The notes below the pieces were generated by a model, which was not told where the DNA came from, did no database searches, and saw only the letters and a list, made by a program, of their open reading frames with translations. Shown here one piece after another: positions 10,382-30,910 of a stretch of 64,000 nucleotides of DNA. Numbering within the stretch: the stretch's first letter is position 1; the number at the start of each line of letters is the position of its first letter. Source of the stretch: Pseudoflavonifractor sp. MSJ-37 (GTDB lineage Bacteria; Bacillota; Clostridia; Oscillospirales; Oscillospiraceae). The stretch is taken from contig NZ_JAHLPP010000001.1 in assembly GCF_018917965.1 (NCBI RefSeq), positions 248,001-312,000 on the forward strand. Reading direction: 5' to 3'. The translations under genes were made by a program, and so were the position numbers.

Positions 10382-10394
10382 AGGAGGTCATGTC

Positions 10395-12401: not shown

Positions 12402-12655
12402 AGCGTGTCGAACCAGTTCGACACGCTTCTCAGAAATGCTGGTCCGTTCTTTGCGAAGAACGGACCAGTATTTCTTCGATGGGGATGCAGGCCGCCGCGC
12501 GCACTCGCTATGCTCGCACACTAGCGGCCTGAGAAGAGTTTTTTCTGAGGCACATGTCCTCAGAAAAAACGCCTTACATCTGCTTCCGTCCCCTGCGGGT
12601 GACGGAACTCTGCGAGGCTCTTGTATCGCTCAACGTGAGAAATGACTTTTTTGAC
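12402..12655 (+). repeat. Dispersed structured repeat, copy 2
   Basis: The longest copy of the element also found at 9090-9290 and 55088-55315. It keeps the full left palindrome (AGCGTGTCGAACCAG then TTCGACACGCT), then a further hairpin GGTCCGTTCTTTGCGAAGAACGGACC found only here, the shared blocks and the hairpin GTTTTTTCTGAGG/CCTCAGAAAAAAC. It fills nearly all of the space between the M20 gene and sigK. Confidence 0.88.
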
Positions 12656-12662
12656 CGTCTGA

Positions 12663-12702
12663 GTGAGCTCCCCGAGACCCATCCGGGTCCGGGGAGCTCA
12701 CG
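12663..12702 (-). terminator. 40-bp hairpin direct repeat, right copy; sits after sigK
   Basis: Identical to 12361-12400. It lies 10 bp after the sigK stop on the minus strand, so it is probably the original transcript-end hairpin of sigK, and the left copy is its duplicate. No clear T-run follows on the minus strand, so its terminator strength is uncertain. Confidence 0.55.
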
Positions 12703-12712
12703 TCATTTCGGT

Positions 12713-13408: not shown

Positions 13409-13538
13409 AGGATGTCCTCCTCGCGTCAGCGTAGGGATGTCAGCATCCCCCAGAGCATCCTATTCCGGGAAGGGACGTCCCGATCACGGGACAGGGGACC
13501 GCTAAGTACGCCGCCCCCGGAGGGGACGGCGGAGCGCG

Positions 13539-13823
13539 TCAGCGCCAGCAGGAGCCGGACCGGTCCGAACGCCGGCCCTCCCACTCCGGATCCCAGGGCC
13601 CATCGCCCCGGAGGAAGCTGGGGAGGGACGGACCGTCTCCCCGGGAGCTCCCGGAAGAGCGGCGGTCGGTCTCCACCACATAGATGATCCGGCGGTCATC
13701 GTCCCCCTCGAAGGAACGTCCGCACGCCCGGGCGAAGCCGGGACAACGGCACTGTCCGCACCGATACCACCGGCACAGACAGCAGCAGTTTCTGCGGCCA
13801 CAGTTGTTGGAACAGCTGCACAT
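13539..13823 (-). CDS. Small cysteine-rich protein beside sigK
   Basis: A 94-residue protein of unknown function. The first 34 residues (MCSCSNNCGRRNCCCLC, then RWYRCGQCRCPGFARAC) hold 11 cysteines; the rest is hydrophilic and rich in Arg, Gly, Ser and Asp, with one more Cys at the end (SGSCWR). AGGAGGGG lies 6 bases before the ATG, which supports translation from here although the frame is open further upstream. Neighbours are sigK downstream and a MocR regulator upstream, all on the minus strand. Cys-rich small proteins near sporulation genes are often coat components cross-linked by disulfides; that role is only a guess. No export signal or membrane segment is seen. Confidence 0.6.
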   Translation of the reverse strand: MCSCSNNCGRRNCCCLCRWYRCGQCRCPGFARACGRSFEGDDDRRIIYVVETDRRSSGSSRGDGPSLPSFLRGDGPWDPEWEGRRSDRSGSCWR

Positions 13824-13899
13824 CGAGATCCCCTCCTGGATGAGTCGGCGGGAGGTCCCGCCATGCCATCCTATGCGGCGGGAGCGGAGCGGTGCCCGG

Positions 13900-15526: not shown

Positions 15527-16741
15527 TTAGTCCTTCTTGGGGACCATGATGGGCAGGGAGGCGTAGAAGCAGATGGCGTCCATCAGCTCGTCCACGGGCA
15601 CCTTGTCCTGAGTGGAGTGGCACAGGGAGTCATCGCCGGGACCGTAGCCGATGGCGGGGATGCCCAGACGGCCGCACATATGGGTGGCGTTGGTGCAGAA
15701 CTCCCACTTGTCCACGACGGGGGCCTTGTCGAACAGCTCGGTGAAGGCCTCCACGCCGGCCTTGATCAGAGGATGATCCTCGGGCATGACCCAGGAGGGG
15801 AAGTAGTCCACGCAGGTGATGTCGTAACCGGTGTAGGTCTTGACCTTCTCGGTGTCGATGGAGGCGGTGACGCCCTCGATGCCCTCGTAGAACTGAGCGG
15901 TCTCCTTCAGCAGGTCCTCGATGGACTCGCCGCAGGAGATGCGGCGGTCACAGGTGATGATGGCCTCGCCGGGGATGGTGTTCAGAGAGGGAGCCTTGCA
16001 CTCCACCATGGTGACCTCGATAGAACCCTTGCCCAGGAAGGGATCCTCCACGAAGTCCTGGAACTTGTCCACCTTCTCCATGATGGGCAGAGCCTTCACC
16101 AGGGCGTTGTCGCCGCGCCAGGCGGTGGAGGCGTGGGCGCACTTGCCGGGAACGTCGATCTTGATCAGGGCACGGCCCTTGTGGCCGCGGATGACGCGGT
16201 TGTTGGAGGACTCGGCCACCAGCACGAAATCGGGCTTGATGTCGGGGTTCTCTTCCAGCATGGCCTTCACGCAGGAGCCCTCGACGTCCTCCTCGGAGAT
16301 GGAGCCGGACACCCACAGGGTGAAGTCCTTGTCCAGGCCCAGAGCCTTCAGGGCCTTGCCGGCGAAAGTGATGCCGGTCAGGCAGCCCTTGTCGTCCACG
16401 GCGCCGCGGCCGCGGAGGACCTTGCCCTCCTCCATCTGGGCCTTCAGGGGATCCATGCCCCAGTCGGCGGGGTCGCCCAGCTCGACGGTGTCGATGTGGG
16501 AGTCATACATGAGGACGGTCTTGCCGGAGCCGACGCGGCCCACCACGTTGCCCACGGGATCCACGCGGACCTCGTCGAAGCCGAACTCCTTCATCTTGCC
16601 GGCCAGGAACTGGATGGCGTTGCCCTCATTATAGGTAACGCTCTCGATGGCGATGAAGTCCTTCAGGAACTGGACGACCTCGTCTTCCTGGGCCTTGACA
16701 TACTCCTTGATCTGGGCCAGCGCTTCTTTTTTCGTGATCAT
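15527..16741 (-). CDS. ygeY: YgeY family selenium-metabolism-linked M20 hydrolase
   Basis: A 404-residue M20 peptidase-like hydrolase. YSDHIDTV-type metal-binding sequence is seen as LMYDSHIDTVELGDP, followed by GRGAVDDKGCL with the second metal ligand, and SISEEDVEGS supplies the catalytic Glu. VLVAESSNNRVIRGHKGRA and GPGDDSLCHSTQDKV match the YgeY group. In E. coli the gene lies in the ygeW-ygeX-ygeY-hyuA-ygfK-ssnA region tied to selenium-dependent molybdenum hydroxylases and anaerobic purine breakdown. AAGGAGGAATTCAC precedes the chosen ATG. It is divergent from ygeW across 105 bp, which argues for shared control. Substrate is unproven; a ureido or diamino intermediate is likely. Confidence 0.92.
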   Translation of the reverse strand: MITKKEALAQIKEYVKAQEDEVVQFLKDFIAIESVTYNEGNAIQFLAGKMKEFGFDEVRVDPVGNVVGRVGSGKTVLMYDSHIDTVELGDPADWGMDPLKAQMEEGKVLRGRGAVDDKGCLTGITFAGKALKALGLDKDFTLWVSGSISEEDVEGSCVKAMLEENPDIKPDFVLVAESSNNRVIRGHKGRALIKIDVPGKCAHASTAWRGDNALVKALPIMEKVDKFQDFVEDPFLGKGSIEVTMVECKAPSLNTIPGEAIITCDRRISCGESIEDLLKETAQFYEGIEGVTASIDTEKVKTYTGYDITCVDYFPSWVMPEDHPLIKAGVEAFTELFDKAPVVDKWEFCTNATHMCGRLGIPAIGYGPGDDSLCHSTQDKVPVDELMDAICFYASLPIMVPKKD

Positions 16742-16846
16742 GTGAATTCCTCCTTGATTTTTTCGAGAGATGCTGTTATGATTATACCATAAAGTTCTCA
16801 AGAGTTATAGAGACTTTTGGAAAAAATTTTTAGGAGGTTCACAACA
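16742..16846. promoter_or_regulatory. Divergent ygeY/ygeW promoter region
   Basis: This 105-bp AT-rich gap holds a TATAAT box on the minus strand (TTATGGTATAATCATAAC) for ygeY and TAGGAGG before ygeW. Clear -35 boxes were not found on either strand, which suits promoters that need an activator. Confidence 0.55.
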
Positions 16847-17854
16847 ATGAAGACTGGTCTCAAGGGCAAGCATTTCCTCTGCGAGCAGGATTGGACGAAC
16901 GAGGAGCTCAATACTCTGATGGACGTGGCGTCCGCCCTGAAGATGGACAACCTGCTGGACACCCATAAGTACGATGAGCTGCTGAAGAACAAGACCCTGT
17001 TCATGCTGTTCTTCGAGGAGTCCACCCGTACCCGCAACGCTTTCGAGTGCGGCATCACCCAGCTGGGCGGCCACGGCAACTACCTGACCCCCAAGGCGAC
17101 TCAGATCGACCACGGCGAGACTCCTCAGGACACCATCGAGGTCCTGTCCCGCATGGGCCACGGCCTGGGCATGCGCAACACCCTGGTGGGCGGCCACGAG
17201 TACATGCAGAAGCTGGCCAAGTATTCCAAGATCCCCATCTACAACATGCAGTGCGATCTGTGGCACCCCACTCAGTCCATCGCTGACCTGTTCACCATCA
17301 AGGAGAAGTTCCACAATGAGCTGAAGGGCCGCAAGTTCGTCATCTCCTGGACCTCCGCCGGCAACTACATGCGTCCTCTGTCCATGGCTCAGTCCCTGGT
17401 CACCCTGATGCCCCGCTTCGGCATGGACGTGACCCTGGCTGTCCCCTCCAAGGAGTTCGAGCTGATGCCCGAGGCCATGGAGACTGCCCGCAAGAACGCT
17501 GAGTTCTACGGCTCCAAGTTCGAGGTCTGCAACGACATGGACGCTGCCTGCGAGGGCGCCGACGTGGTCTACGCCAAGGGCTGGGGCCCCATCATGGCCG
17601 TGGGCGACGACGAGAAGGCCGGTGTCGAGATGATCAACGCCAACCCCGGCTGGTGCGTCGACTCCCGCCGCATGGCTCTGGCCAAGAACACCGCCATCTA
17701 CATGCACTGCATGCCCGCTGACCGCGGCATCGAGGTCACCGACGAGGTCGCTGACTCCGCTCAGTCCGTCATCTATGATGAGGCCGAGAACCGCATGCAC
17801 ACCATCAAGGCCCTGATGGCTCTGACCATGGGCAACATCCAGAGCCGCCGCTAA
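16847..17854 (+). CDS. ygeW: Knotted carbamoyltransferase YgeW
   Basis: This 335-residue protein belongs to the aspartate/ornithine carbamoyltransferase superfamily. The carbamoyl-phosphate site shows as FFEESTRTRNAFE (STRTR motif), with HPTQSIADLFT downstream and HCMPADRG near the C-terminus. It is longer than typical ornithine transcarbamylase by the YgeW-type insert. YgeW genes travel with ygeY, ssnA and xdh genes in purine-degrading anaerobes; the reaction is thought to move a carbamoyl group off a ureido intermediate so that carbamoyl phosphate can yield ATP, but the true substrate is unknown. TAGGAGG precedes the ATG. Terminators follow, so it is transcribed separately from the next operon. 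Confidence 0.93.
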   Translation: MKTGLKGKHFLCEQDWTNEELNTLMDVASALKMDNLLDTHKYDELLKNKTLFMLFFEESTRTRNAFECGITQLGGHGNYLTPKATQIDHGETPQDTIEVLSRMGHGLGMRNTLVGGHEYMQKLAKYSKIPIYNMQCDLWHPTQSIADLFTIKEKFHNELKGRKFVISWTSAGNYMRPLSMAQSLVTLMPRFGMDVTLAVPSKEFELMPEAMETARKNAEFYGSKFEVCNDMDAACEGADVVYAKGWGPIMAVGDDEKAGVEMINANPGWCVDSRRMALAKNTAIYMHCMPADRGIEVTDEVADSAQSVIYDEAENRMHTIKALMALTMGNIQSRR

Positions 17855-17883
17855 GCAAGCGCTCTGACGCGGGACCTTTTTGT

Positions 17884-17915
17884 CCCCGCCCCGCCGCTCC
17901 GGCGGCGGGGCGGGG
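17884..17915 (+). terminator. Very GC-rich hairpin after ygeW
   Basis: CCCCGCCCCGCCGC and GCGGCGGGGCGGGG pair perfectly over 14 bp around TCCG, 30 bp after the ygeW stop. No T-run follows; it probably protects the 3' end while the next hairpin terminates. Confidence 0.5.
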
Positions 17916-17960
17916 CTCCTGCGAAACCAGGAACAACAAACAAGGCGCCTCGCGCTTGAC

Positions 17961-17999
17961 AAAAAAAGCGGCACATCGCACATATGTGCCGCTTTTTTT
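17961..17999. terminator. Bidirectional terminator between ygeW and the amidohydrolase operon
   Basis: A run of seven As, then GCGGCACAT (17968-17976) pairing with ATGTGCCGC (17984-17992), then seven Ts. This is a textbook symmetrical rho-independent terminator. Confidence 0.9.
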
Positions 18000-18067
18000 A
18001 CGAATGTTCTGTGAAAACTGTTCGGTTTGAACTGAGAGGTACGCAAGCAACAGGGAGGATGGACAAC

Positions 18068-19384
18068 ATGGCAGCAGCGACTATCATCCACGGCGGAGCC
18101 GTGCTCCTGCAGGAGGGGCTCAAGATGGACTGGGGCGTCAAGCTCCAGGACGGTCTCATCGCGGAGGTGGGCCCCAACGGGAGCCTCACCGCTCAGGACG
18201 GCGACGAAGTGATCGAGGTCAGGGACCAGGTAATCCTGCCCGGCTTCATCAACGGACACAACCATATGTATAATGTGTTCTGCCGCGGTATCAGCACCGA
18301 CGCGGTCGTCACCGAGTTCTCCAGCTTCCTGGACGACTACTGGTGGCCCTATATCGAGAACCGCATCACCCCCGAGTTCGCGGAAGTCACCGCCCGGTGG
18401 TCCAGCGTGGAGATGATCGACAGCGGCGTCACCACCAGCTTCGACATCCTGGAGGCCCCCAATGCCATCCCTGGCGCTCTGGAGCGGGAAGGCAAGGTCC
18501 TCAAGGAGGCCGGCCTGCGTGCCATCCTCACCTTCGAAGCCTGCCAGCGCATGAGCCCCGAGAACGCGGAGCTGGGCCTGAAGGAGAACGCGGACATGGT
18601 CCGCGCCCATCAGGATGACCCCTTCGTGAAGGGTGCCATGAGCATCCACACCCTCTTCACCTGCGACAAGGAGTATGTGAAGAAGGCCCGTGCCATGGCG
18701 AAGGAGCTGGGCTGCAAGTTCCATATGCACCTGTCCGAGAGCGTCTTCGAGCCCAACTGGGTGAAGGAGCACTATGACGATAAGCCTGTGCGCGTCTATG
18801 ACGAGCTGGGCGTGCTGGACAGCGACGTCCTGGCTTCTCAGGTGGTCCAGGCAGATCAGGAGGAGATCGACATCCTGGCCCGGACCGGTGCGTCCGTGGT
18901 CACGATGCCTCTCTCCAACTGCGAGGTGGGCGGCGGCATCGCCCCTGTGCCCGACCTGCTGGACGCCGGCGTCAAGGTGGGCATCGGTACCGACGGTTAT
19001 ATCAACAACTTCTTTGAAGTCATGCGCGGCGCTTTCCTGATCCATAAGGCATTCCGGCAGGACCCACAGGTGATGGGTGCCCGGCAGGTCTACCGGATGG
19101 CCACGGATATGGGGGCCGATGCGCTCGGCATGCCGAACGCGGGGCGGATCGCCCCGGGGATGCTGGCCGACGTCATCACCGTCAAAATGCTCGATACGCC
19201 CACGCCCATCAACGAAAAGAATATCTACGACCAACTGATCCTGTATCGGAACCCCGCCGATGTGAAGAACGTCTTCGTCGGCGGCCGGCAGCTCAAGAAG
19301 GACGGCGTCATCACGACGCTGGACGTTGAGAAGGCCCGCGAAGAGATGCGCGCGGCCACCGCAGAGTTCTGGAAGTTCAAGTGA
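18068..19384 (+). CDS. SsnA-like amidohydrolase, first of two
   Basis: This 438-residue amidohydrolase-superfamily (cytosine/guanine deaminase-like) protein shows the metal-binding HxH in GFINGHNHMYN, further histidine in KFHMHLSES, and the catalytic aspartate region GIGTDGYINN. Such enzymes deaminate or hydrolyse ring amides of purine-like compounds. The second ATG is chosen because AGGGAGG lies 9 bases upstream of it, whereas the first in-frame ATG touches that site. It heads a run of genes with xdh subunits; 85 bp separate it from the first large subunit. SsnA is the likely family, though Se dependence or substrate cannot be seen here. Confidence 0.85.
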   Translation: MAAATIIHGGAVLLQEGLKMDWGVKLQDGLIAEVGPNGSLTAQDGDEVIEVRDQVILPGFINGHNHMYNVFCRGISTDAVVTEFSSFLDDYWWPYIENRITPEFAEVTARWSSVEMIDSGVTTSFDILEAPNAIPGALEREGKVLKEAGLRAILTFEACQRMSPENAELGLKENADMVRAHQDDPFVKGAMSIHTLFTCDKEYVKKARAMAKELGCKFHMHLSESVFEPNWVKEHYDDKPVRVYDELGVLDSDVLASQVVQADQEEIDILARTGASVVTMPLSNCEVGGGIAPVPDLLDAGVKVGIGTDGYINNFFEVMRGAFLIHKAFRQDPQVMGARQVYRMATDMGADALGMPNAGRIAPGMLADVITVKMLDTPTPINEKNIYDQLILYRNPADVKNVFVGGRQLKKDGVITTLDVEKAREEMRAATAEFWKFK

Positions 19385-19469
19385 ATCCAGGCCTTTTCCG
19401 TCCCTTAGACAGGAGGGAAAAGCGAAAAGCCCTGTTCCAGATGGGATCCCATGCGAGGAAGGTGATTTC

Positions 19470-21794
19470 ATGCCCCTGTTAGGCGAACTGAATAAGAACT
19501 ACAAGGTCATCAATCGATCCGTGCCCCGGATCGACGGAGTCGATAAGGTGAGCGGCCGGGCCCATTACGCCGCGGACCTGAAATTCGTGGACATGGTCTA
19601 TGGCGGCTGCCTGCGCAGCGGTCATTCCCACGCCAAGGTCACCAAGATCGACACCAGCAAGGCCAAGGCCATGCCCGGCGTGCTGGCGGTCGTGACCGCA
19701 GCTGATATGCCCAAACCCAAGAGCTGTGCCGGCCCCGCCGCCTATATGTACCTGACGGATGAGGTCAAGTACGCCGGCGATGTGGTGGCGCTCGTCTGCG
19801 CCGAGACCAAGCTCATCGTGGAAGAGGCCCTCCGGGCCATCGAGGTGGAGTACGAGGACCTACCCGGCGTGTATACGATCCGGGAGGCTATGGAGCCCGG
19901 CGCTCCGGTGGTCCACGAGAACTACCCCGGCAACAAGTTCAAGGACTCCTATTTCCCCATCCGCAAGGGCGATGTGGAAAAAGGCTTCGAGGAGGCCGAC
20001 CTCATCATCGAGCGGGAGTACGAGACCCAGTATATCGAGCACTCCTATATCGAGCCGGAGGCTGTGGTCTGCATCCAGAACCCCACCGACGGTGTCATGA
20101 CCGTCCATGCTTCCGCGCAGAACCCGTTCTTCACCCGCCGCTACATCGCGGACGTCCTGGGCGTCGGCATGAACGAGGTCCGTGTGTTCCAGGAGAACGT
20201 GGGCGGCACCTTCGGCGGCAAGGAAGAGGGTCTGGGCATGCTGGCGGCCCGCTGTGCTTACCTGTGCAAGCTGGTGGGACGGCCCGTCAAGATGACCTTC
20301 TCCCGGGAGGAGTCCTTCCTGGAGAGCGCTAAGCGGCATCCCTTCCTGCTCCACTATAAGGTGGGCGTCAAGAAGGACGGCCATATCGTGGCCTGGGAGG
20401 GCAGCCAGATCGACAACTGCGGCGCCTACAACAACCAGACCCAGTTCATGAACTCCCGCGCCAGCATCCACAGCTGCGGCGCGTATACCATCCCCAACGT
20501 GAAGACCGACACCTTCGGCGTCTTCACCAACAACATCCACGGCGGCGCCATGCGCGGCTACAGCTCTCCCCAGCTGATCTGGGGCCAGGAGCAGCTGATC
20601 GAGGAGATCGCCGAGGAACTGGGTATGGATCCCCTGGAGTTCCGCCGTATCAACTGCCTGAAGGAAGACACCACGAACGCCACCGGCCAGGTCATGCACC
20701 ACGTGATCCTGCCCGAGATCATGGAGTATACCGCCAAAAAGACGGACTATCAGCGCAAGCACGAGGAGTATAAGCACCAGACCAACAAGCATAAGCGCAA
20801 GGGCATCGGTATGTCCATCGCCCACCGCGGCTGTGGTCTGGGCGCCGAGTCTCCCGACGCCTCCGGCGCCATGGCCATCGCCAATGAGGACGGCACCGTC
20901 CTGATCAACACCGGTCTGGCGGAGAACGGCCAGGGTCTGAAGACCGCCTTCTCCCAGATCGCCGCCGAGGCCATCGGCATCCCCTATGAGCTGATCCGCT
21001 TCTACGGCACCGACACTCAGGCCATCGCCGACTCCGGCATGACCGTCGCCTCCCGCGGTACTGTCATGGGCTCTCAGTCCACCCGCAAGGTGGGCTATCG
21101 CCTGAACGAGATCATGCGCGGCAACGCGCTGGCCCTTGGCTTCTTCAAGGATCAGGAGGACGTGCATGACGTGTCCCAGATCGTGCTGGAGGACGGCTTC
21201 TTCCACACGACCTCCAAGCCCGATGTGAAGGTCCCCTTCAAGGACGTGTGCAATGCCAGTCTGTGGACCGGCCGCCAGATGGCCGCCTATGAGTGGTTCA
21301 TGCCCCCGGCCTGCGATCAGGATCACCACACCGGTCAGGGCACCGCGTTCCCCACCTTCGCCTATGGCTGCTGTGTGGCCGAGGTCGAGGTGGACATGGA
21401 TACCGGCTATGTGGATGTGGTGAAGGTCACCGCCTCCCACGACGTGGGCACCGCGATCAACCCCGCCCTGGTGCTGGGCCAGATCTATGGCGGCATCGTC
21501 ATGGGTCAGGGCTACGCCGTCACCGAAGAGGTGGAGGTCAGCAAGGGCAAGGTCCGCAATCAGAACTTCGAGAACTATATCATCCCCACTGCCGCGGATA
21601 TGCCCGAGATGGACGTGAATATCTTCGAGTGTGATGACCCCGCAGGTACTTTCGGGGCCAAGAGCATCGGCGAGCCCGCCACCGAAGCGGTGGGCGCGGC
21701 CATCATCAATGCCATCTACAACGCCACTGGCCGCCGCATCCGGGAGAATCCCGCCAACCTGGAGCGAGTCCTGCTGGGCAAGAAGCTGAGATAA
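19470..21794 (+). CDS. xdhA: Xanthine dehydrogenase-type molybdenum subunit 1
   Basis: A 774-residue large subunit that binds the molybdopterin cofactor. Motifs include VGGTFGGKEE (about residues 244-253), GGAMRGYSSPQ (about 355-365), GQGLKTAFSQIAAE and GAKSIGEPATE near the C-terminus with the catalytic glutamate in GE. It is followed at 12 bp and 16 bp by the FAD and FeS subunits, making a complete three-part hydroxylase that oxidises a purine or related heterocycle. AGGAAGGTGATTTC precedes the ATG at 19470. Of the three large subunits in this block, this is the one with its own electron-transfer partners. Confidence 0.93.
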   Translation: MPLLGELNKNYKVINRSVPRIDGVDKVSGRAHYAADLKFVDMVYGGCLRSGHSHAKVTKIDTSKAKAMPGVLAVVTAADMPKPKSCAGPAAYMYLTDEVKYAGDVVALVCAETKLIVEEALRAIEVEYEDLPGVYTIREAMEPGAPVVHENYPGNKFKDSYFPIRKGDVEKGFEEADLIIEREYETQYIEHSYIEPEAVVCIQNPTDGVMTVHASAQNPFFTRRYIADVLGVGMNEVRVFQENVGGTFGGKEEGLGMLAARCAYLCKLVGRPVKMTFSREESFLESAKRHPFLLHYKVGVKKDGHIVAWEGSQIDNCGAYNNQTQFMNSRASIHSCGAYTIPNVKTDTFGVFTNNIHGGAMRGYSSPQLIWGQEQLIEEIAEELGMDPLEFRRINCLKEDTTNATGQVMHHVILPEIMEYTAKKTDYQRKHEEYKHQTNKHKRKGIGMSIAHRGCGLGAESPDASGAMAIANEDGTVLINTGLAENGQGLKTAFSQIAAEAIGIPYELIRFYGTDTQAIADSGMTVASRGTVMGSQSTRKVGYRLNEIMRGNALALGFFKDQEDVHDVSQIVLEDGFFHTTSKPDVKVPFKDVCNASLWTGRQMAAYEWFMPPACDQDHHTGQGTAFPTFAYGCCVAEVEVDMDTGYVDVVKVTASHDVGTAINPALVLGQIYGGIVMGQGYAVTEEVEVSKGKVRNQNFENYIIPTAADMPEMDVNIFECDDPAGTFGAKSIGEPATEAVGAAIINAIYNATGRRIRENPANLERVLLGKKLR

Positions 21795-21806
21795 GGGGAG
21801 TCACGA

Positions 21807-22676
21807 ATGCAAAGACTGAGTTATCTGAAGCCCCAGACCCTGGAAGAGGCTCTGGGCTATCTGAACGAATACGGCGAGAAGGTCAAGCCCTACGCCGGCG
21901 GCACGGACCTGATGGTCCAGCTCCGGGAGCACACCTCCAAGCTAAAGGACGTGGAGTATCTGATGGACGTGCAGTATCTGCCGGAGCTGCGCGGCATCGA
22001 GGTCAAGGACGACTGCATCAGCATCGGCTGTATGACCTCTCACACCGAGGTGAACGAGTCTCCCGTCCTGCGGGAGCATGTGCCCTTCCTGTCCATCGCC
22101 TCCTCTACCGTGGGCTCCACCCAGGTGCGGAACAAGGGCACCGTGGGCGGCAACATCTGCAACGCCTCTCCCGCGGCGGACACCCTGTCCCCCTTCGTGG
22201 CCCTGAACGCCCGCCTGACCGTGGTCAGCGTGGACGGCACTCGCGAGGTGCTGGTGAAGGAAGCCATGGAGAAGGCCGGCAAGCTGAAGTTTGCCCCCAA
22301 TGAGATGGCCACCCGGATCACCATCGACCGGCTGGACGGCTGGCATACCGCCTTCATCAAGCTGGGCCGCCGCAAGGCTCTGGCGATCTCCCGCATGAAC
22401 TGCGCCGTGGCCCTGAAGCTGGAGGACGGCGTGATCGCCGACGCCCGCATCGCTCCCGGCTGCGTGTTCGCCACCCCCGACCGGGTGGAGAAGGCCGAGG
22501 AACTGGTGAAGGGCCAGAAGCCCTCCGCGGAGCTCTTCGAGAAGGCCGGCCTGGCCGTCTCCGAGGAGATGATCGCCCGCACCGGCATCCGCTGGTCGAC
22601 CGAGTACAAGAAGCCTGTCATCGAGGCCCTCATCCAGCGCGCCCTCTGCCGGGCCGCGGGTCTGCCCGAGGACTGA
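21807..22676 (+). CDS. xdhB: Xanthine dehydrogenase-type FAD subunit
   Basis: A 289-residue CoxM/XdhB-type FAD-binding protein that passes electrons from the FeS subunit to NAD or another acceptor. FAD contacts are visible as KPYAGGTDLMV and STVGSTQVRNKGTVGGNICNASPAADT, followed by DTLSPFVALNARL. It lies between the large and FeS subunits with 12- and 16-bp gaps. The same protein probably serves the two extra large subunits encoded further downstream, which lack their own. Confidence 0.95.
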   Translation: MQRLSYLKPQTLEEALGYLNEYGEKVKPYAGGTDLMVQLREHTSKLKDVEYLMDVQYLPELRGIEVKDDCISIGCMTSHTEVNESPVLREHVPFLSIASSTVGSTQVRNKGTVGGNICNASPAADTLSPFVALNARLTVVSVDGTREVLVKEAMEKAGKLKFAPNEMATRITIDRLDGWHTAFIKLGRRKALAISRMNCAVALKLEDGVIADARIAPGCVFATPDRVEKAEELVKGQKPSAELFEKAGLAVSEEMIARTGIRWSTEYKKPVIEALIQRALCRAAGLPED

Positions 22677-22692
22677 GGGAGGAGGACTGGAT

Positions 22693-23169
22693 ATGAAGAA
22701 GATCACTTTGGAGTGTTTCCTCAATGAGGAGCCGGTCTCTCTGGAGATCGACGAGAATGCCCGTCTGCTGGACGTCATCCGTGACGTGGCCGGTCTGACC
22801 GGCACCAAGGAAGGCTGCGGCGTCGGCGAGTGCGGCGCCTGCACCGTCATCGTGGACGGCGAGACCGTGGATTCCTGCATCGTGCTGGCCGCCTCCATGC
22901 AGGGCAAGCACATCACCACGGTGGAGGGCCTGTCCAAGAACGGCGAGCTGGATCCCATCCAGCAGGCCGTGCTGGACCACCACGCTTTGCAGTGCGGGTT
23001 CTGCACCCCCGGCTTCCTGATGAGCGCCAAGGCGCTCCTGGACAAGAAGCCCGACCCCACCCGCGACGAGATCAAGATGGCCATCGCCGGCAACCTGTGC
23101 CGCTGCACGGGCTATCAGCAGCTGGTGGAAGCGTTTGAAGACGCGGCGAAGGAGTATCAGAAGCGCTGA
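22693..23169 (+). CDS. xdhC: Xanthine dehydrogenase-type 2Fe-2S subunit
   Basis: A 158-residue protein with two [2Fe-2S] clusters. The N-terminal plant-type cluster shows as GCGVGECGACTVIVDG plus a further Cys (VDSC). The C-terminal helical cluster shows as LQCGFCTPGFLM and NLCRCTGYQ. It carries electrons from molybdenum to FAD. GGGAGGAGG precedes the ATG. It is complete and the only such gene in the window. Confidence 0.96.
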   Translation: MKKITLECFLNEEPVSLEIDENARLLDVIRDVAGLTGTKEGCGVGECGACTVIVDGETVDSCIVLAASMQGKHITTVEGLSKNGELDPIQQAVLDHHALQCGFCTPGFLMSAKALLDKKPDPTRDEIKMAIAGNLCRCTGYQQLVEAFEDAAKEYQKR

Positions 23170-23257
23170 TGCACCCTGGGCCTGTCGATAGTATCCTCGC
23201 CGACTGACGGAGGAGGATCGACCCTATATTTTTGGAGAATAAGAGGAGCGATTAGAG

Positions 23258-24484
23258 ATGTTCGACAAGGAAAAGGTCAAGGGCGCTTCTATCGGCGTCA
23301 AATTCTGCGGTTACGATCTCCAGAGCCCGTTCATCGTGGGATCCGGCCCTCTCACCTATGGTTCTGAGGGCATGATCCGTGCCCATCAGGCTGGTGTCGG
23401 CGCTGTGGTCACCAAGACCATCCGTCTGGGTGCCGCCATCAACCCCGCCCATCACATGGCCAAGATCAGCAACGAGGCGATCCTGAACTGCGAGAAGTGG
23501 GCGGATTCCGACCGCTTCCAGTGGTACGAGAAGGAGATCCCCGAGGCGGTCAAGGCCGGCGCCATCGTCATCGGCTCCGTGGGCCACACCCCCATCGAGG
23601 CCAAGGCCATCGTGGAGGACGTGGAGAAGGCCGGCGCTCACATCATCGAGCTGGTCTCCTACACCGAGGACACCCTGCTGCCCATGCTGGACTACGCCAA
23701 GGAGCACGTGAACATCCCTGTCATCTGCAAGCTGTCCGGCAACTGGCCCGATCCCGCCGGCACCGCCAAGAAGTGCTATGAGCACGGCGCCGACGGCCTG
23801 TGCGCCATCGACTCCATCGGCCCCACCCTGATGATCGACGTGGAGAAGCGCGCCCCCGTGATGATGAGCAACGACGGCTACGGCTGGATGACCGGCGCCC
23901 CCATCAAGCCCATCTCTCTGCGCATCAACAGCCAGATCACCCGCAACGTGCCTGGCTATAAGAACCTGTACGGCACCGGCGGCGTGATGAAGGCCGATGA
24001 CGCCATCGAGTACCTGATGACCGGCTGCAACGCCGTGGGCATCTGCTCCGTGGGCATCCTGAAGGGCCTGGACTATGTGGAGAAGATGTGCTACAAGCTG
24101 TCCGACCGCCTGAAGGAGCTGGGCTTCAACTCCATCCAGGAGGCCATGGGCGTGGCTCTGCCCAACTTCCCTTCCACCGAGAACATCACCGACATGGGCT
24201 TCCACTTCGACGCCAAGAAGTGCTCCAAGTGCCACCTGTGTGAGACGGTCTGCTGCTACAAGGCCCGCAAGGTCATCGTGCCGGAGGACAAGACTCAGCT
24301 GCCGGAGATGACTCTGGACCGCAGCCTGTGCCGTTCCTGCGGCCTGTGCGCCGATGTGTGCCCCACCCACGCTCTGACTAGCTTCGTGGAGGACCAGTCC
24401 GCCGAGAACGCCAAGCGCGCCGCGGCTTCCAAGAACTTCGACGCCATGGTGAAGGCTCAGGATCCCAAGCTGCTGGAGCGCTGA
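23258..24484 (+). CDS. PreA-like dihydropyrimidine dehydrogenase/DHODH-family flavoprotein with two 4Fe-4S clusters
   Basis: A 408-residue protein. Residues 1 to about 310 are a dihydroorotate-dehydrogenase-type barrel (SPFIVGSGPLTYGSEGM, VICKLSGNWPDP, GTGGVMKADDAIEYLMTGCNAV). The end is a bacterial ferredoxin with CSKCHLCETVCCYK and CRSCGLCADVCPTH. This is the layout of PreA, which with PreT reduces pyrimidines; no PreT-like NADH partner is seen here. In this setting it may reduce a purine- or pyrimidine-like ring, or pass electrons to the hydroxylase. It is the last gene before the strong terminator at 24712. The extra Cys in ETVCCYK is unusual. Confidence 0.88.
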   Translation: MFDKEKVKGASIGVKFCGYDLQSPFIVGSGPLTYGSEGMIRAHQAGVGAVVTKTIRLGAAINPAHHMAKISNEAILNCEKWADSDRFQWYEKEIPEAVKAGAIVIGSVGHTPIEAKAIVEDVEKAGAHIIELVSYTEDTLLPMLDYAKEHVNIPVICKLSGNWPDPAGTAKKCYEHGADGLCAIDSIGPTLMIDVEKRAPVMMSNDGYGWMTGAPIKPISLRINSQITRNVPGYKNLYGTGGVMKADDAIEYLMTGCNAVGICSVGILKGLDYVEKMCYKLSDRLKELGFNSIQEAMGVALPNFPSTENITDMGFHFDAKKCSKCHLCETVCCYKARKVIVPEDKTQLPEMTLDRSLCRSCGLCADVCPTHALTSFVEDQSAENAKRAAASKNFDAMVKAQDPKLLER

Positions 24485-24565
24485 TCTCCGGCGGTACCAT
24501 ACTTACTGTGATACAAGCATCCCTATATCGTTACTGACAAAGTGACTCGACTGTCGTGGAGATGT

Positions 24566-24675
24566 CCCCCGGGCGTATGCATTTCGCGTCTGCCGCCCTG
24601 GCCGCCCGGGGGCCCTCCATTCAGCGACGGCGGGTGTATCAAACGTGCGTGTGAACCACTCCCTTGTGATGGAGG
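24566..24675 (+). ncRNA. Structured RNA region between the two hydroxylase operons (class unknown)
   Basis: Two stems follow one another: CCCCCGGGCG (24566-24575) with CGCCCGGGGG (24603-24612), then CCTCCAT (24614-24620) with ATGGAGG (24669-24675). A 20-bp terminator follows. The order resembles a riboswitch plus expression platform, but no known class was recognised and it may only be the 3' end of the upstream transcript. Confidence 0.35.
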
Positions 24676-24711
24676 AGGGACCGCAGTTTCGTTCAGGCAC
24701 GAGAAGGACAG

Positions 24712-24769
24712 GGAGGCAGGCGCGCTCCATCGAACACGCGGATGGAGCGCGCCTGCCTCCTTTTGTTGT
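24712..24769 (+). terminator. Strong terminator between the two hydroxylase operons
   Basis: A perfect 20-bp stem: 24712-24731 (GGAGGCAGGCGCGCTCCATC) with 24741-24760, loop GAACACGCG, then TTTTGTTGT. The gap from here to 24981 has a TATGAT box near 24895 as a possible promoter, but no clear -35 and no gene. Confidence 0.92.
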
Positions 24770-24981
24770 GTTCTTTGATAACAGTCGAACGAACGGCTGC
24801 TGTACGTCGGGCATACCTGAGTGTTGGGACCACCGAGCGATGTAGACAGGCATCGGCGGCATCGGCACCGGACTCCAGGCTATGTGGACCGTAGTATGAT
24901 GTAGTTGAAGTCGAGGAATGCCGTGGGCAGAGCCAGAAGCCGTCTCGATCACCGATTTTTTTTCATTAGGAGATGAAACGT

Positions 24982-27201
24982 ATGAAGGCATATAGCCAGA
25001 TCGGAGAAAGTACCCCTATCCGGGACGCAGCTCTGAAAGTGACCGGCCGAAAGATGTACGTGGGGGACATGAAGCTCCATGGGATGCTGTATGGAGAGAT
25101 CGTGTTCAGCAAGGTGGCCCACGCCAAGATCCGCTCGATCGACACCAGCGCGGCCGAGGCTCTGCCCGGTGTGCGCGCGGTGGTCTGCTACAAGAACGCC
25201 CCCGACACCCTCTACAACAGCGCGGTCCGCTTCTATGAGCATCAGATCCCCGACACGGAGCGGATCTTCGACGACACCGTCCGCTTCGTGGGCGACCGTG
25301 TGGCGGCCGTGGCCGCCGATACCCCCGCGATCGCCAAGAAGGCGGCCGGACTCATCAAGGTGGAGTACGAGCCTCTGCCCGTCTATCTGGACCCTGAGGA
25401 GGCCATGAAGGAGGGCGCTTATCCCATCCACGGCGATAAGAACGCCATCACCACCATGGTCCATAACGCCGGCGATCTGGAAAAGGGTTTCGCGGAAGCC
25501 GACCAGATCTTCGAGGACCGTTATACCACTCAGCCCATCCATCACTGTGCCATCGAGCCCCATGTGACGCTGGCCGACTATGACTTCACCGGCAAGCTCA
25601 CCGTCTATACGTCCTGCCAGAACACCTTCGGCTACCGCATCATCCTCAGCCGGATCTTCAAGATGCCCATGAGCAAGATCCGGGTGGTCACGCCCGCCAT
25701 CGGCGGCGCCTTCGGCGGTAAGCTGGAGATGACCATCGAGCCTGTGGCGGCCCTGCTGTCCATGAAGGCTGGCCGTCCGGTGAAGCTGGCCCTCTCCCGT
25801 CAGGCCTGCATCGACTCCACCCGGACCCGCCATGCCTCTGTGGTGTATCTGAAGACCGGCGTGAAGAACGACGGTACCATCGTGGCCCAGGACGTGCGCA
25901 TCATCACCAATACGGGCGCTTATGCCACCAGCGCCCTGAACGTGCTGGGCGCCCTGAGCCATAAGGTGTTCAAGGTCTACAAGATCCCCAATATGCGCTT
26001 CACCGGCATCCCCGTGTACACCAACACGCCCATCGCCGGCGCCATGCGCGGCTACGGCTCTCCTCAGGCCTTCTTCGGCCAGCAGCGCCAGTTCCAGAAG
26101 ATCGCCAAGGCTCTGGGCATGTCTGTGGTCGACCTCCAGATGAAGAACCTGGTGGATCCCGAGGACTCCGATCCCATGGGCTTCAAGCTGGGCAACCCCC
26201 GTCCTAAGGACTGTGTCCGCCGGGGCGTGGAGCTCATGGAGAACTGGAAGCCTCTGGACGACGAGGGCGGCAAGTACGCCATCGGCGTGGGCATGGCCGT
26301 GGGCGCGCACGGCTGCGGCTGCTTCGGCGCCCACCGGGACCAAGCCGCCGTCATGATCAAGATGAACGAGGACGGCACCCTGACCTACTTCACCGGCACC
26401 CATGATATGGGCAATGGCTCCGTCACCGCCCAGACACAGGTCATCTCCAATACCCTGAAGCTCCCTCTGGCCTCAATCACCACGATGGAGGCCGACACCG
26501 ATGCCTGCCCCTGGCAGCTGGGCGACTATTCCAGCCACGGCATCTTCGTGGTGGCCAGCGCGGCCAAAAAGTGCGCCGAGTCCGTGGCGGCCGATTTGAT
26601 CCACCAGGCCTCTCTCATGCTGTCCAAGCCGGAGGAGGACCTGGAGATCTGCGAAGAAGGCATCCGGGTGAAGAGCACCGGAGAGACCACCTCCCTCAGC
26701 GATGTGATCGTCTACTCCCAGGACAAGTCCCACCACGAGATCATCTGTCAGGAGACCTATCCCATGCCCAACGGCCCCAGCGCCTATGGCGCCCACTTTG
26801 CCCGGGTCAAGGTGGAGAAGACCACCGGCAAGGTCATCGCCACCGATTATGTGGCCGTCCACGACGTGGGCAAGGTCATCAACCGGATGGGCATCGAGGG
26901 CCAGCTCCAGGGCGGCATCCAGATGGGGCTGGGCTATGCTCTGTGCGAGGGCCTGAAGTTCGACGAGAACGGCCGGAACATCTACAACAACTTCCGGAAG
27001 TATAAGATGTTCACCGCCGACCAGATGCCCAGCATCCAGGTGGACTTCATCGAAGAGCTGGAGCCCAACGGACCCTATGGCGCCAAGAGCATCGGCGAGG
27101 CCGCGGTCGTGCCAGCCAATCCTGCGGTGATGAACGCCGTGTGCGATGCGCTTGGGAAGGAGATCGACGGCTCCCCCTATCGGGACTGGACGGGTGAATA
27201 A
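24982..27201 (+). CDS. Xanthine dehydrogenase-type molybdenum subunit 2
   Basis: A 739-residue molybdopterin-binding large subunit, paralogous to the ones at 19470 and 27217. Motifs: IGGAFGGKLE, GAMRGYGSPQ, GNGSVTAQTQ and GAKSIGEAAV near the end with the GE catalytic site. The second ATG (24982) is preferred because AGGAG lies 9 bases upstream; the first ATG touches it. No FAD or FeS subunit follows, so it must borrow those at 21807 and 22693 or pair with proteins outside the window. It is 15 bp from the next paralogue and co-transcribed with it. Substrate is unknown; purines, nicotinate or other N-heterocycles are possible. Confidence 0.9.
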   Translation: MKAYSQIGESTPIRDAALKVTGRKMYVGDMKLHGMLYGEIVFSKVAHAKIRSIDTSAAEALPGVRAVVCYKNAPDTLYNSAVRFYEHQIPDTERIFDDTVRFVGDRVAAVAADTPAIAKKAAGLIKVEYEPLPVYLDPEEAMKEGAYPIHGDKNAITTMVHNAGDLEKGFAEADQIFEDRYTTQPIHHCAIEPHVTLADYDFTGKLTVYTSCQNTFGYRIILSRIFKMPMSKIRVVTPAIGGAFGGKLEMTIEPVAALLSMKAGRPVKLALSRQACIDSTRTRHASVVYLKTGVKNDGTIVAQDVRIITNTGAYATSALNVLGALSHKVFKVYKIPNMRFTGIPVYTNTPIAGAMRGYGSPQAFFGQQRQFQKIAKALGMSVVDLQMKNLVDPEDSDPMGFKLGNPRPKDCVRRGVELMENWKPLDDEGGKYAIGVGMAVGAHGCGCFGAHRDQAAVMIKMNEDGTLTYFTGTHDMGNGSVTAQTQVISNTLKLPLASITTMEADTDACPWQLGDYSSHGIFVVASAAKKCAESVAADLIHQASLMLSKPEEDLEICEEGIRVKSTGETTSLSDVIVYSQDKSHHEIICQETYPMPNGPSAYGAHFARVKVEKTTGKVIATDYVAVHDVGKVINRMGIEGQLQGGIQMGLGYALCEGLKFDENGRNIYNNFRKYKMFTADQMPSIQVDFIEELEPNGPYGAKSIGEAAVVPANPAVMNAVCDALGKEIDGSPYRDWTGE

Positions 27202-27216
27202 GGAGGGCTCAGGAAC

Positions 27217-29472
27217 ATGGCTAATCATCGCAAAGATGTCTTTGCCAAAGTGACCGGCAAGGCCATCTACGCCAACGATATCAAGATGCCCGGCATGGTG
27301 TTCTGCAAGGTCGTGCGTTCTACCATCGCCAGCGGCAAGATCCTTTCTATCGACAGCTCTGAGGCGGAGAAGGTGCCCGGCGTGATCCGGATCATCACCG
27401 CCAAGGACATCCCAGGCATCCCCAACCAGCCTTGCGACCGGCCTGTCATCTGCGGCGACCGGGTGCGCTACATCGGTGATGCGGTGGCTCTGGTGGCCGC
27501 CGAGACCAAGGAGCAGGCCGAGGAGGCCGTCGCTCTGGTCAAGGTGGAGTACGAGCCCCTGCCCGCCAACTTCGACCCCATGCACGCGCTGGATGAGAAT
27601 GCCCCGCTGGTCCACGACAGCGGCAACACCATCTGCAAGTGGAGGACCTTCCGGGGCGACGCCGAGGGCACCTTCCCCAAGTGCGACCATGTGATCGAGC
27701 GGGACTATGTGACTTCCCGGGTCCAGCATGTCTGTATCGAGACCGAGGCGGCGGTGGCCTACACCGACCAGATCACTAACCAGATGATCGTCCGGTGCCC
27801 CGTGAACAGCCCCTTCGTGATCCGCAAGACTGTGGCTGAGACGCTGGGCGTGCCCTACACGCAGGTCCGGGTGGTCCTGGCGGTGATCGGCGCCTCCTTC
27901 GGCGGCAAGAACTACGACATCGCCATGGCCTCCAGCCGGGCGGCTCTGGTGAGCCATCTGCTGGGCTGCCCCTGCAAGGTCTATCTGACCCGCGAGGAGT
28001 CCATCATGGAGGGCACCAAGCGCCATCCCATCCACGCCCACTACAAGGTCGGCTTCAATGATGACGGCAAGCTCCAGGCCATGCAGGTCCGGCTCGTGCT
28101 GGACGGCGGCGCCTACAAGAGCAAGACCTTCCCAGTCACTACCCGGATGGCCATCGAGGCCGCCGGCCCCTATATCGTGCCCAATATCGACACCATCTCC
28201 ACCAGCGTATACACCAACAATGTGTACTCCGACGCCCTCCGGGGCTTCGGCTCCCCCCAGGTGGATTTCTGCTCCGAGTCCCTCATGGACGAGATCGCCA
28301 AGGAACTGGGCATGGACCCCGTGGAGCTACGCAAGCGCAATATGCTCTATGAGGGCTGTACCTCCACCACTGGCCAGCACATGACCAACGTGACGCTGGA
28401 CAAGTGCTGGGAGGCCCTGGACGGGGCCGCCAAGGTGGAGGAACGCCGGAAGCGCATCGCCGAGTACAACGCCTGCCACACCGGCACCAAGAAGGGCCTG
28501 GGCATCGCGTTCCTGCACCGGGGCGAGTCCTTCGGCGCCGCCGGCCAGGGCATCGACACCGCCAGCGGCATGATCGCCCTCCAGCCGGACGGCAGTGTCA
28601 TGGTGGCCTCTTCCATCGCCGAGGTGGGCCAGGGCGGCGCCAATATGCTGGTCAGCGTGGTCCACGAGACCCTGGGCGTGGACCGGGAGAAGATCCACCT
28701 GACCCCTGTGGATACCGGCTATCTCACCGATGCCGGCCCCACCGTGGCCACCCGCGGCACCGTCTTTTCCGGCGGAGCCGTCTGGAAGGCCTGCCTCAGT
28801 GTCCGGGAGAAGCTGACCGACTATGCCGAGAAGCGCCTGAACACCCGAGACCTCATCTTCGAGGACGAGTCCATCACCGATGCCAAGGACCCCGCCAACA
28901 CGGTGCCCCTGCTGACGGTCATCGGCGATGCGTTCAATAATTCCGACCATCTGAATTCCCTGGGCTACTTCGCCGCGCCTCCGTTCGACTATGACCGGAG
29001 CACCGGAGTGGGCGACGCCTACTGGTCCTGGGTCTACGGCGCCGCCGCCGCTGAGGTGACGGTGGACCTGAAGACCGGCTCCGTGTCGGTGGATGACTAC
29101 TTCGCCGTCCACGATGTGGGCCATGCCATGGACCCGGACGAGGTCGAGGGCCAGATCCGCGGCGGCGTGGCCATGGGCATCGGCTACGCCCTGACCGAGG
29201 AAGTGGATATGAAGGAAGGCCGCATCCGCAACCTGAACCTGGAGAACTACATCCTGCCCACCGCGCTGGATGTGCCCGACCAGATCCACGCCATCGCCCT
29301 GGAGATTCCCAGTGAGATCGGCCCTCTGGGGGCCAAGGGCCTCGGCGAGCCCGCCACCTGCAACGTGGCACCGGCCGTGGTGAACGCCATCGCCGATGCC
29401 TGTGGAAAGCGTATCCGGGAGCTCCCGGCCAATCTGGAGCGGATCCTCCTGGGCCACGCTATGAGCAAGTGA
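27217..29472 (+). CDS. Xanthine dehydrogenase-type molybdenum subunit 3
   Basis: A 751-residue third large subunit. Motifs are IGASFGGKNYD (the usual G-G is A-S here and the usual acidic residue after K is N), SDALRGFGSPQ (others have GAMRGY), GQGGANMLVSVVHE and GAKGLGEPAT with the GE catalytic site kept. Differences around the cofactor and substrate pocket suggest a different substrate from its two neighbours. AAGGAGGGCTCAGGAAC precedes the ATG. It is followed after 88 bp by the second amidohydrolase. Confidence 0.9.
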   Translation: MANHRKDVFAKVTGKAIYANDIKMPGMVFCKVVRSTIASGKILSIDSSEAEKVPGVIRIITAKDIPGIPNQPCDRPVICGDRVRYIGDAVALVAAETKEQAEEAVALVKVEYEPLPANFDPMHALDENAPLVHDSGNTICKWRTFRGDAEGTFPKCDHVIERDYVTSRVQHVCIETEAAVAYTDQITNQMIVRCPVNSPFVIRKTVAETLGVPYTQVRVVLAVIGASFGGKNYDIAMASSRAALVSHLLGCPCKVYLTREESIMEGTKRHPIHAHYKVGFNDDGKLQAMQVRLVLDGGAYKSKTFPVTTRMAIEAAGPYIVPNIDTISTSVYTNNVYSDALRGFGSPQVDFCSESLMDEIAKELGMDPVELRKRNMLYEGCTSTTGQHMTNVTLDKCWEALDGAAKVEERRKRIAEYNACHTGTKKGLGIAFLHRGESFGAAGQGIDTASGMIALQPDGSVMVASSIAEVGQGGANMLVSVVHETLGVDREKIHLTPVDTGYLTDAGPTVATRGTVFSGGAVWKACLSVREKLTDYAEKRLNTRDLIFEDESITDAKDPANTVPLLTVIGDAFNNSDHLNSLGYFAAPPFDYDRSTGVGDAYWSWVYGAAAAEVTVDLKTGSVSVDDYFAVHDVGHAMDPDEVEGQIRGGVAMGIGYALTEEVDMKEGRIRNLNLENYILPTALDVPDQIHAIALEIPSEIGPLGAKGLGEPATCNVAPAVVNAIADACGKRIRELPANLERILLGHAMSK

Positions 29473-29560
29473 TCCCTGCGTCTATGCATATCGGATAAAT
29501 GTTCCGCAAAGTAGACCAAAGATCAAATAGATCAAGAAGACAGGAAAGGAAATGATCCGT

Positions 29561-30910
29561 ATGAAGACTCTGTTCCGCAACCCCTGGATCGTGACCATGA
29601 ACGACGATTTCGGGATGATCCGCAATGGATTCGTCCTCATCACCGACGACAAGATTACGGAAGTTGGATCCGACCCCATGCGGATGGCTCAGCTCAGCAT
29701 CGAGGCTGACTCCGTCATCGACGCCGCTGATAAGATCTTGATGCCCGGCATGGTCAGCGCCCATACCCATCTGTTCCAGACCTTCATGCGCGGCCTGGCC
29801 GACGATCTGGAGCTGTATCCCTGGCTGTCCACTCAGGTGTGGCCCTTCTCCGAGCTGATGACCGAGGAGGACTTCTACTATGCCGGCCTGATCGGCTGCC
29901 TGGAGAACCTGAAGACCGGCGCCACCAGCTGCATCGACCAGCACTATATCTACACCTCTCTGAACAACGGCGACCATATCTTCGAGGCCATGCGGGATTC
30001 CGGCATCCGCGGCAATATGTGCCGCTGCTTCGCGAACATCGTGTATTACGAGAAGTTCCGCGAGGAGGATCAGGACCGCATCCTGAACGACATCAAGCGC
30101 CTGCACAGCGAGTGGGCCGGCAAGGAGAACGGCCGCCTGTCCCTGAGCATCGGGCCCCTGAACCCCTGGGGCGTCTCTCCCGACCTGTTCCAGAAGACCA
30201 AGCAGCTGTCCAAGGATCTGGGCGTGAAGTTCCAGGTCCACACCGCGGAAGATCAGGACGTGGTCACCAAGACCGCCGCGATGTACGACGGCATGCGCAA
30301 CCTGGAGTTCTTCGACTCTCTGGGCATCCTGGACGAGGACACCCAGCTGGCCCACGCCATCTGGCTGGACGATCACGAGATGGAGATCCTGGAGAAGCGC
30401 CGCTGCCAGCCTGTCCACTGCCCCGTGGCCAACGCCTACCTGGCCGACGGCGTGGCCCGCGTGCCTGAGATGCTGAAGATGGGCCTGCCCGTGGCTCTGG
30501 GCACCGACGGCCCCGGCAGCAACAACTCCCAGGATATGCTGGGCACCCTGAAGTACACCGCCCTCATGCACAAGAACCACAACCTGAACGCCCACATCAT
30601 CTCCAACCGGGACGTGCTGACCATGGCCACCCGCAACGGCGCCGTCGCCATGAGCATGGGCGGCCAGATGGGCCAGATCGCTGCCGGTCAGAAGGCCGAC
30701 ATCATCCTGGTCGACTGGAAGAAGCCCCACATCGCCCCTGTCCATCATCCCGAGTCCGCCCTAGTGAACAACGCCACCGGCAACGACGTGGATACCGTCA
30801 TGGTCAACGGTGAGATCGTGGTCCGCAACAAGAAGTCCACCAAGATCGACGAGGTCGCCCTCATCGACGAGTGCCAGAAGCGCATCGAGTACATCAAGAG
30901 CAAGATGTAA
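29561..30910 (+). CDS. SsnA/TrzA-type amidohydrolase, second of two
   Basis: A 449-residue amidohydrolase-superfamily deaminase or hydrolase. The metal site is SAHTHLFQTFMRG, with QVHTAED, LAHAIWLDDHE and GTDGPGSNNSQDM carrying the later His and Asp ligands. These resemble guanine deaminase, 8-oxoguanine deaminase and chlorohydrolases. The ATG at 29561 is preferred: GGAAAGGA lies 10 bases before it but only 1 base before an earlier in-frame ATG. It ends the catabolic block with a strong terminator. It is a paralogue, not a close copy, of the gene at 18068, so the two probably act on successive or alternative ring compounds. Confidence 0.88.
   Translation: MKTLFRNPWIVTMNDDFGMIRNGFVLITDDKITEVGSDPMRMAQLSIEADSVIDAADKILMPGMVSAHTHLFQTFMRGLADDLELYPWLSTQVWPFSELMTEEDFYYAGLIGCLENLKTGATSCIDQHYIYTSLNNGDHIFEAMRDSGIRGNMCRCFANIVYYEKFREEDQDRILNDIKRLHSEWAGKENGRLSLSIGPLNPWGVSPDLFQKTKQLSKDLGVKFQVHTAEDQDVVTKTAAMYDGMRNLEFFDSLGILDEDTQLAHAIWLDDHEMEILEKRRCQPVHCPVANAYLADGVARVPEMLKMGLPVALGTDGPGSNNSQDMLGTLKYTALMHKNHNLNAHIISNRDVLTMATRNGAVAMSMGGQMGQIAAGQKADIILVDWKKPHIAPVHHPESALVNNATGNDVDTVMVNGEIVVRNKKSTKIDEVALIDECQKRIEYIKSKM

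Follow-up and report, generated by a model that had tools for sequence, protein, structure and literature searches.

A block of ten genes in Pseudoflavonifractor sp. MSJ-37 appears to encode a UacX-type variant of the anaerobic reductive uric-acid pathway, in which two of three molybdenum large subunits (Mo1 and Mo3) share one FAD/FeS module and the third (Mo2) is a catalytic head of another kind; we give this reading a probability of roughly 0.6. The block lies within the stretch of 64,000 nt that was analysed, hereafter the window. Urate-degrading gut bacteria influence host urate levels and the risk of gout, and the locus proposes a further enzyme lineage, that of Mo1, for the first step of urate degradation, together with a hybrid gene set that joins UacX to a YgeW-like transferase. 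It also offers a testable case, in the xanthine-oxidase family, of catalytic subunits set on a common electron-transfer module, and the decay of its FeS gene provides a natural test of whether such heads can change partners. The uric-acid pathway itself is already known, as are uneven numbers of Mo, FAD and FeS genes in C. difficile (PMC11448449); what appears to be new is the combination of a Mo1 lineage in the place of XdhD, UacX alongside a YgeW-like transferase, a pair of paralogous operons with two heads each and a FeS gene lost in place.

Gene Content and Conservation of the Block

The features of the block are collected in Table 1. Each of the three large subunits carries all three Mo-subunit Pfam domains, and the pocket motifs that the initial annotation had quoted for these paralogues (GAMRGYSSPQ, GAMRGYGSPQ and DALRGFGSPQ) are present, in pockets that do differ. 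For Mo2, ATG 24982 is better spaced than 24973 from the AGGAG at 24968–24972. It was also rightly noted that the locus holds a single electron-transfer set: one FAD and one FeS gene, which sit between Mo1 and a gene described as PreA-like. The YgeY gene is divergent and lies just beyond the span that had been annotated. The block is found with its order kept in the MAG SUG478 (L040), in Pseudoflavonifractor gallinarum (L041) and in Pseudoflavonifractor sp. 524-17 (L042), with proteins 83–96% identical, and it is therefore no accident of assembly; a close Mo2 (86–100%) occurs in 4 of the 10 genomes of the genus that were examined. Upstream of the block, at 9488–12328 of the window, a DUF5058 membrane protein is encoded together with another small membrane protein and an M20 peptidase, a trio that could be an importer with a hydrolase.

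Table 1. Features of the block, in window coordinates.
Feature	Coordinates	Strand	Evidence
YgeY, M20 family ureido hydrolase of the uric-acid pathway	15527..16741	-	NCBIfam NF009555 397 bits (cut-off 321); TIGR03526 386 (cut-off 321.5)
YgeW-like carbamoyltransferase	16847..17854	+	Pfam OTCace; under YgeW cut-off; YgeW-type loop WTSAGNYMRPLSMAQ
AH1, divergent SsnA-like amidohydrolase	18059..19384	+	SsnA model 244 bits (cut-off 444)
Mo1, molybdenum large subunit, candidate urate reductase (XdhD role)	19470..21794	+	Mo-subunit Pfam domains; residue counterparts; linkage
FAD subunit, local module	21807..22676	+	PF00941, PF03450
FeS subunit (2x[2Fe-2S]), local module	22693..23169	+	PF00111, PF01799
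UacX-type FMN/4Fe-4S ring reductase (PreA-like gene)	23258..24484	+	DHO_dh and two 4Fe-4S sites, without FAD domain
Decayed FeS4-type subunit gene	24485..24972	+	six frames closed; covariance-model and profile matches; shuffle control
Terminator-like hairpin, then T-rich tail, within the FeS relic	24708..24768	+	fold z -9.8
Mo2, large subunit, FAD-less FeS4-partnered family	24982..27201 (ATG 24973 also possible)	+	Pfam domains; tree
Mo3, large subunit, Mo1 sister lineage	27217..29472	+	Pfam domains; tree
AH2, aminopurine-deaminase-like amidohydrolase	29552..30910	+	PF01979

Proposed Assignment to the Reductive Uric-Acid Pathway

In the reductive uric-acid pathway, published in 2025, urate is dehydroxylated and its ring reduced without oxygen, and the proteins involved are XdhD, YgfK or UacX, SsnA, HyuA, YgeW or UacY, YgeY and YgeX (PMC12507026). 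The PreA-like protein of the block is of the UacX type: it combines a DHO_dh barrel with 4Fe-4S sites, has no FAD domain, and is clustered with an SsnA-type gene and a xanthine dehydrogenase (XDH) homologue, the Mo1-FAD-FeS genes separating it from AH1. It is 65% identical to a protein that sits between YgeX and YgeY in the Clostridium locus L044 and 44% identical to one that adjoins an SsnA-like gene in L045 (Metaclostridioides), and its predicted structure (mean pLDDT 66.7) is closest to the dihydropyrimidine dehydrogenase fold (E about 1e-21). UacX replaces the missing YgfK, for which the best stretch in the whole genome reaches 289 bits, with partial coverage of the model, against a cut-off of 835.

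The roles of SsnA, HyuA, YgeW/UacY, YgeY and YgeX are all encoded in the genome, those of SsnA and YgeW by divergent members that fall below the curated cut-offs. AH1 is 45% identical to the amidohydrolase that adjoins UacX in L045 (Metaclostridioides mangenotii), where the two genes in turn adjoin an XdhD-type enzyme, and this UacX-adjacent protein, at 276 bits, misses the SsnA cut-off as AH1 does. YgeY and YgeW had both been named as members of the block; the former scores over its cut-offs, whereas the carbamoyltransferase, the third of the genome, reaches 179.8 bits against a cut-off of 500 and 186.9 against 453 with the curated YgeW models, which rules out a true YgeW by name and leaves the role in place. 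A housekeeping OTC was also ruled out, because the genome has its own at C1:1033 kb; in a sequence alignment the transferase has the YgeW-type (knot) loop and the OTC of the genome is without it. A structure prediction of the transferase (mean pLDDT 37) was discarded as too poor. The best curated models for AH2 are of deaminase type (5'-deoxyadenosine, 8-oxoguanine), all under cut-off.

The reported absence of ygfK, ygeX and hyuA is correct for the locus and, in the case of ygfK, for the genome, but the other two are encoded elsewhere. YgeX (TIGR03528) is over cut-off at C2:240 kb, adjoined by a carbamate kinase (over cut-off) and a xanthine-permease-family protein; HyuA (TIGR02033) is over cut-off at C2:331 kb, adjoined by YqeB (TIGR03309, 358 against a cut-off of 220) and YqeC (TIGR03172, 195 against 73). 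The last two are markers of selenium-dependent Mo hydroxylases. In locus L032 (5130–11001), which lies on a different contig from the main block, yqeB, yqeC, a mocA-like gene and a XdhC-family gene cluster with hyuA, which ties selenium/Mo maturation to the uric-acid pathway; in the same locus (12529–14004) a 491-aa protein adjoins a threonine-synthase-like gene and has no Pfam match at E 1e-8.

As we infer the activities and substrates from gene content, phylogeny and synteny, Mo1 with the FAD and FeS subunits would convert urate to 2,8-dioxopurine (yanthine), UacX would reduce the purine ring, and AH1, in the SsnA role, would then open it. Opening of the hydantoin would fall to HyuA, and removal of the two ureido groups to the YgeW-like transferase and YgeY, with carbamoyl phosphate going to carbamate kinase; YgeX would lead to pyruvate. 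Mo2, Mo3 and AH2 probably bring other purines into the pathway; their substrates are guesses from neighbours and families. What speaks against the assignment to this pathway is that YgeX, HyuA and carbamate kinase are encoded away from the block and that the block contains no urate permease.

The cluster of E. coli (xdhD-ygfM, ygfK, ssnA, hyuA, ygeW, yqeA, ygeY, ygeX; PMC12507026) has in common with the block YgeY, a YgeW-type transferase, an SsnA-type amidohydrolase and an XDH-type enzyme with a FAD subunit, and HyuA, YgeX, carbamate kinase, yqeB and yqeC are likewise present in the host genome. Unlike the E. coli cluster, the host has UacX for YgfK, the Mo1 lineage for XdhD, several scattered loci, two extra Mo subunits and AH2. 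The cluster with UacX and UacY of C. difficile and Metaclostridioides (PMC12507026; L045, L046) shares with the host UacX and an SsnA-like gene, a Mo2-type enzyme and deaminase-like genes nearby, and Se/Mo maturation genes in the genome; it differs in that the host has a YgeW-like transferase for UacY, an XDH-type module of another lineage and a Mo2 without its own FeS gene.

Mo1 and the Three Pockets

Mo1 is the likeliest urate reductase of the block, because its relatives lie in synteny with YgeX, UacX and YgeY in the orders AH1-Mo1-FAD-FeS-YgeX-UacX-YgeY (L044) and Mo1-FAD-FeS-YgeX-UacX-YgeY (L050). In the Mo tree it falls outside the XdhD clade, XdhD grouping with XdhA (98/96) and Mo1 with Mo3, Mo4 and Mo5, and it is therefore linkage only that argues for the role. 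The counterpart of E. coli XdhD Glu606 is a gap in Mo1, Mo2 and Mo3, and also in the XdhD-type protein of L045. In the alignment, Mo1 keeps the counterparts of mammalian XDH Gln767, Glu802, Arg880, Arg912 and Glu1261, while Mo2 has Leu at the position of Glu802 and Mo3 has Asn at those of both Gln767 and Glu802; the counterpart of the catalytic Glu1261 is kept in all three. Judged by these residues, the pockets differ from one another, and no substrate is readable from them by themselves.

Electron-Transfer Modules in the Genome

Profile searches over the whole host genome (2.58 Mb, 99.98% complete) found 8 Mo (PF02738), 3 FAD (PF00941) and 5 FeS (PF01799) genes. The Mo:FAD:FeS ratio is 3:1:1 in the window locus, 2:1:1 at C1:743–747 kb (Mo5, FAD2, FeS2, Mo4) and 1:1:1 at C1:579 kb (Mo7, FAD3, FeS3); the other loci are the pairs FeS4 and Mo6 at C1:149 kb and FeS5 and Mo8 at C3:30 kb. 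Each FAD or FeS gene adjoins a Mo gene, with no orphan genome-wide, so that no spare partner is available for Mo2 or Mo3. Mo7-FAD3-FeS3 is the XdhABC orthologue (49/44/49% to E. coli); it has the same three-subunit xanthine dehydrogenase architecture as the E. coli enzyme and forms a locus separate from the block.

The Mo tree places (Mo1, Mo5) as sister to (Mo3, Mo4) (100/98), and in the FAD and FeS trees the two modules are again paired. The paralogues are 59% (Mo1-Mo5), 49% (Mo3-Mo4), 67% (FeS-FeS2) and 46% (FAD-FAD2) identical, and the genes of the Mo5-FAD2-FeS2-Mo4 set are spaced by 17, -4 and 5 nt. The simplest account is that a Mo-FAD-FeS-Mo' set was duplicated and that in each copy Mo' uses the module jointly with Mo. 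Since Mo1 and Mo3 are of sister lineages and the paralogous set repeats the pattern of two Mo genes with one module, it is likely, from gene counts and repeated gene order, that Mo1 and Mo3 share the local FAD/FeS module, on which Mo3 would be the second catalytic head.

Such shared modules had been called little described, and our literature search indeed gave nothing direct on them in the xanthine-oxidase family; uneven ratios are known from C. difficile, with 5 xdhA, 3 xdhB and 3 xdhC, in which missing FAD/FeS subunits were suggested to alter redox chemistry (PMC11448449). In that organism, too, Mo genes outnumber FAD or FeS genes and some loci lack partners; unlike it, the host has two paralogous operons of two Mo genes with one module and the visible loss of one FeS gene.

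Mo2 and the Relic of Its FeS Gene

Mo2 forms a separate clade with Mo6 and Mo8 (100/100), and the FeS partners of this family form a clade of their own, the FeS4 type (100/99). In six loci (L043–L047 and L050) an intact FeS gene lies directly upstream of the Mo2 relative. The same place measures 440–525 nt in the window and its three relatives, and the 488 nt of the window hold no open frame in any of the six frames. A covariance model built on one segment, the 3' third of this stretch, matches intact FeS4-type genes at the collinear place (L011, E 7e-4; more weakly in L048 and L044), and a profile made from intact FeS4-type genes picks up the CGYCTPGM block in each of the four species and the C-terminal block, in the right order, in two relatives (CRCTGYVK in L042). 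Shuffled sequences equalled the profile result in 4 of 500 cases in the window and in 0 of 500 in each of the three relatives. The collinear matches of the covariance model to intact FeS4-type genes reveal the stretch as a non-coding relic of a FeS4-type gene; the four species share the decayed sequence, and the decay therefore probably preceded their split. This loss is part of the reason why three Mo genes stand beside a single electron-transfer set. With its FeS gene decayed in place, Mo2 would have to borrow a FeS subunit from the Mo1 module, from FeS4 (with Mo6) or from FeS5 (with Mo8).

Within the relic, a hairpin of 19–21 bp with a T-rich tail is present in all four species (z -9.8 in the window, -6 to -8 in the relatives), which a simple terminator scan did not list. 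Two further segments, 24640–24706 and 24793–24943, are more conserved in the four species than the fourfold sites of the flanking genes (p 0.002 and 0.0002), and no structure or Rfam family accounts for their conservation. A new riboswitch, considered from the conservation of the stretch and the fold of its whole length (z -3.4), was rejected: nothing in Rfam matches, the long segments for the most part fold as shuffled sequences do, and the covariance model leads to a decayed gene. Among 400 genomes of the family, the RNA model gave a strong match only in three genomes of the genus (that of the window and two others), the rest being at chance level.

Alternative Readings

The initial annotation took the block for a pathway of ring hydroxylation at three positions. 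Read in this way, the block would oxidize purines, taking xanthine or hypoxanthine to urate and hydroxylating further. Enzymes of the xanthine-oxidase family are able to work in both directions, the catalytic glutamate is kept by each of the three heads, and Mo1 has the counterparts of the purine-binding Glu802 and Arg880; nevertheless, this reading is unlikely, since the genome already has its XdhABC orthologue at another locus, and UacX together with the SsnA-like, YgeW-like and YgeY proteins points to reduction and ring opening. Still less probable is that Mo2, Mo3 or both are surplus paralogues that lack a functional partner and are being lost. The FeS gene of Mo2 is gone, as is, by comparison with L043–L046, its FMN_red neighbour, and a terminator-like hairpin stands upstream of Mo2; however, Mo2 and Mo3 are intact, keep their catalytic residues and are 86–89% identical across the four species while fourfold sites are only 65–75% identical, which indicates purifying selection.

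The partner of Mo2 is more evenly balanced. Separate partners elsewhere had been named as a result that would speak against sharing; for Mo3 no orphan FAD or FeS gene was found, but for Mo2 the case for sharing is weakened, as its family has its own FeS subunits elsewhere and FeS4 is encoded about 120 kb away, so that a separate partner in trans is possible. We see about an even chance that Mo2 is served in trans by FeS4 or FeS5, only Mo1 and Mo3 then sharing the local module: the FeS proteins next to Mo2 orthologues are 57–70% identical to FeS4 against 42–54% to the FeS of the window, they fall in the well-supported FeS4-type clade, and of the four species that share the FeS relic, three keep FeS4-Mo6 and the other at least Mo8. 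On the other side, the local FeS gene precedes Mo2 in the same orientation, and the two would be expressed together if the hairpin does not part them; the partnership is a predicted one. It is a good deal more doubtful that the module serves three exchangeable heads of differing purine specificity, Mo1 and Mo3 by ancestry and Mo2 by capture, and the capture, by which Mo2, from a FAD-less family, would have lost its own FeS gene and moved onto the module, is just as tentative. Reuse of the 488-nt stretch as a regulatory leader RNA can likewise be put forward only with reserve: its two segments surpass fourfold sites in conservation and its conserved hairpin is strong and followed by a T-rich tail, yet it has no Rfam match, the conserved segments mostly fold no better than shuffles, and the choice of aligned columns could inflate a conservation measured on four sequences only.

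Neighbours of the FAD-Less Family

A FMN_red flavoprotein gene lies downstream of the Mo2 relatives in L043–L046 and L050 and also adjoins Mo8. NADPH-dependent FMN reductase-like genes are found 3' of FAD-less Mo genes partnered by FeS4 or FeS5 in L013 (12152–12775), L043 (11131–11805), L044 (12302–12922) and L045 (12273–12974), and such a flavoprotein may be the electron partner of these enzymes in place of a FAD subunit. Methenyl-tetrahydromethanopterin cyclohydrolase (MCH) is typical of methanogens and methylotrophs; in L011 (12021–12980), from an Oscillospiraceae genome, a gene for this enzyme (PF02289, 342 bits) is flanked by the FeS4-Mo6 pair on one side and a pyruvate-dehydrogenase-like operon on the other.
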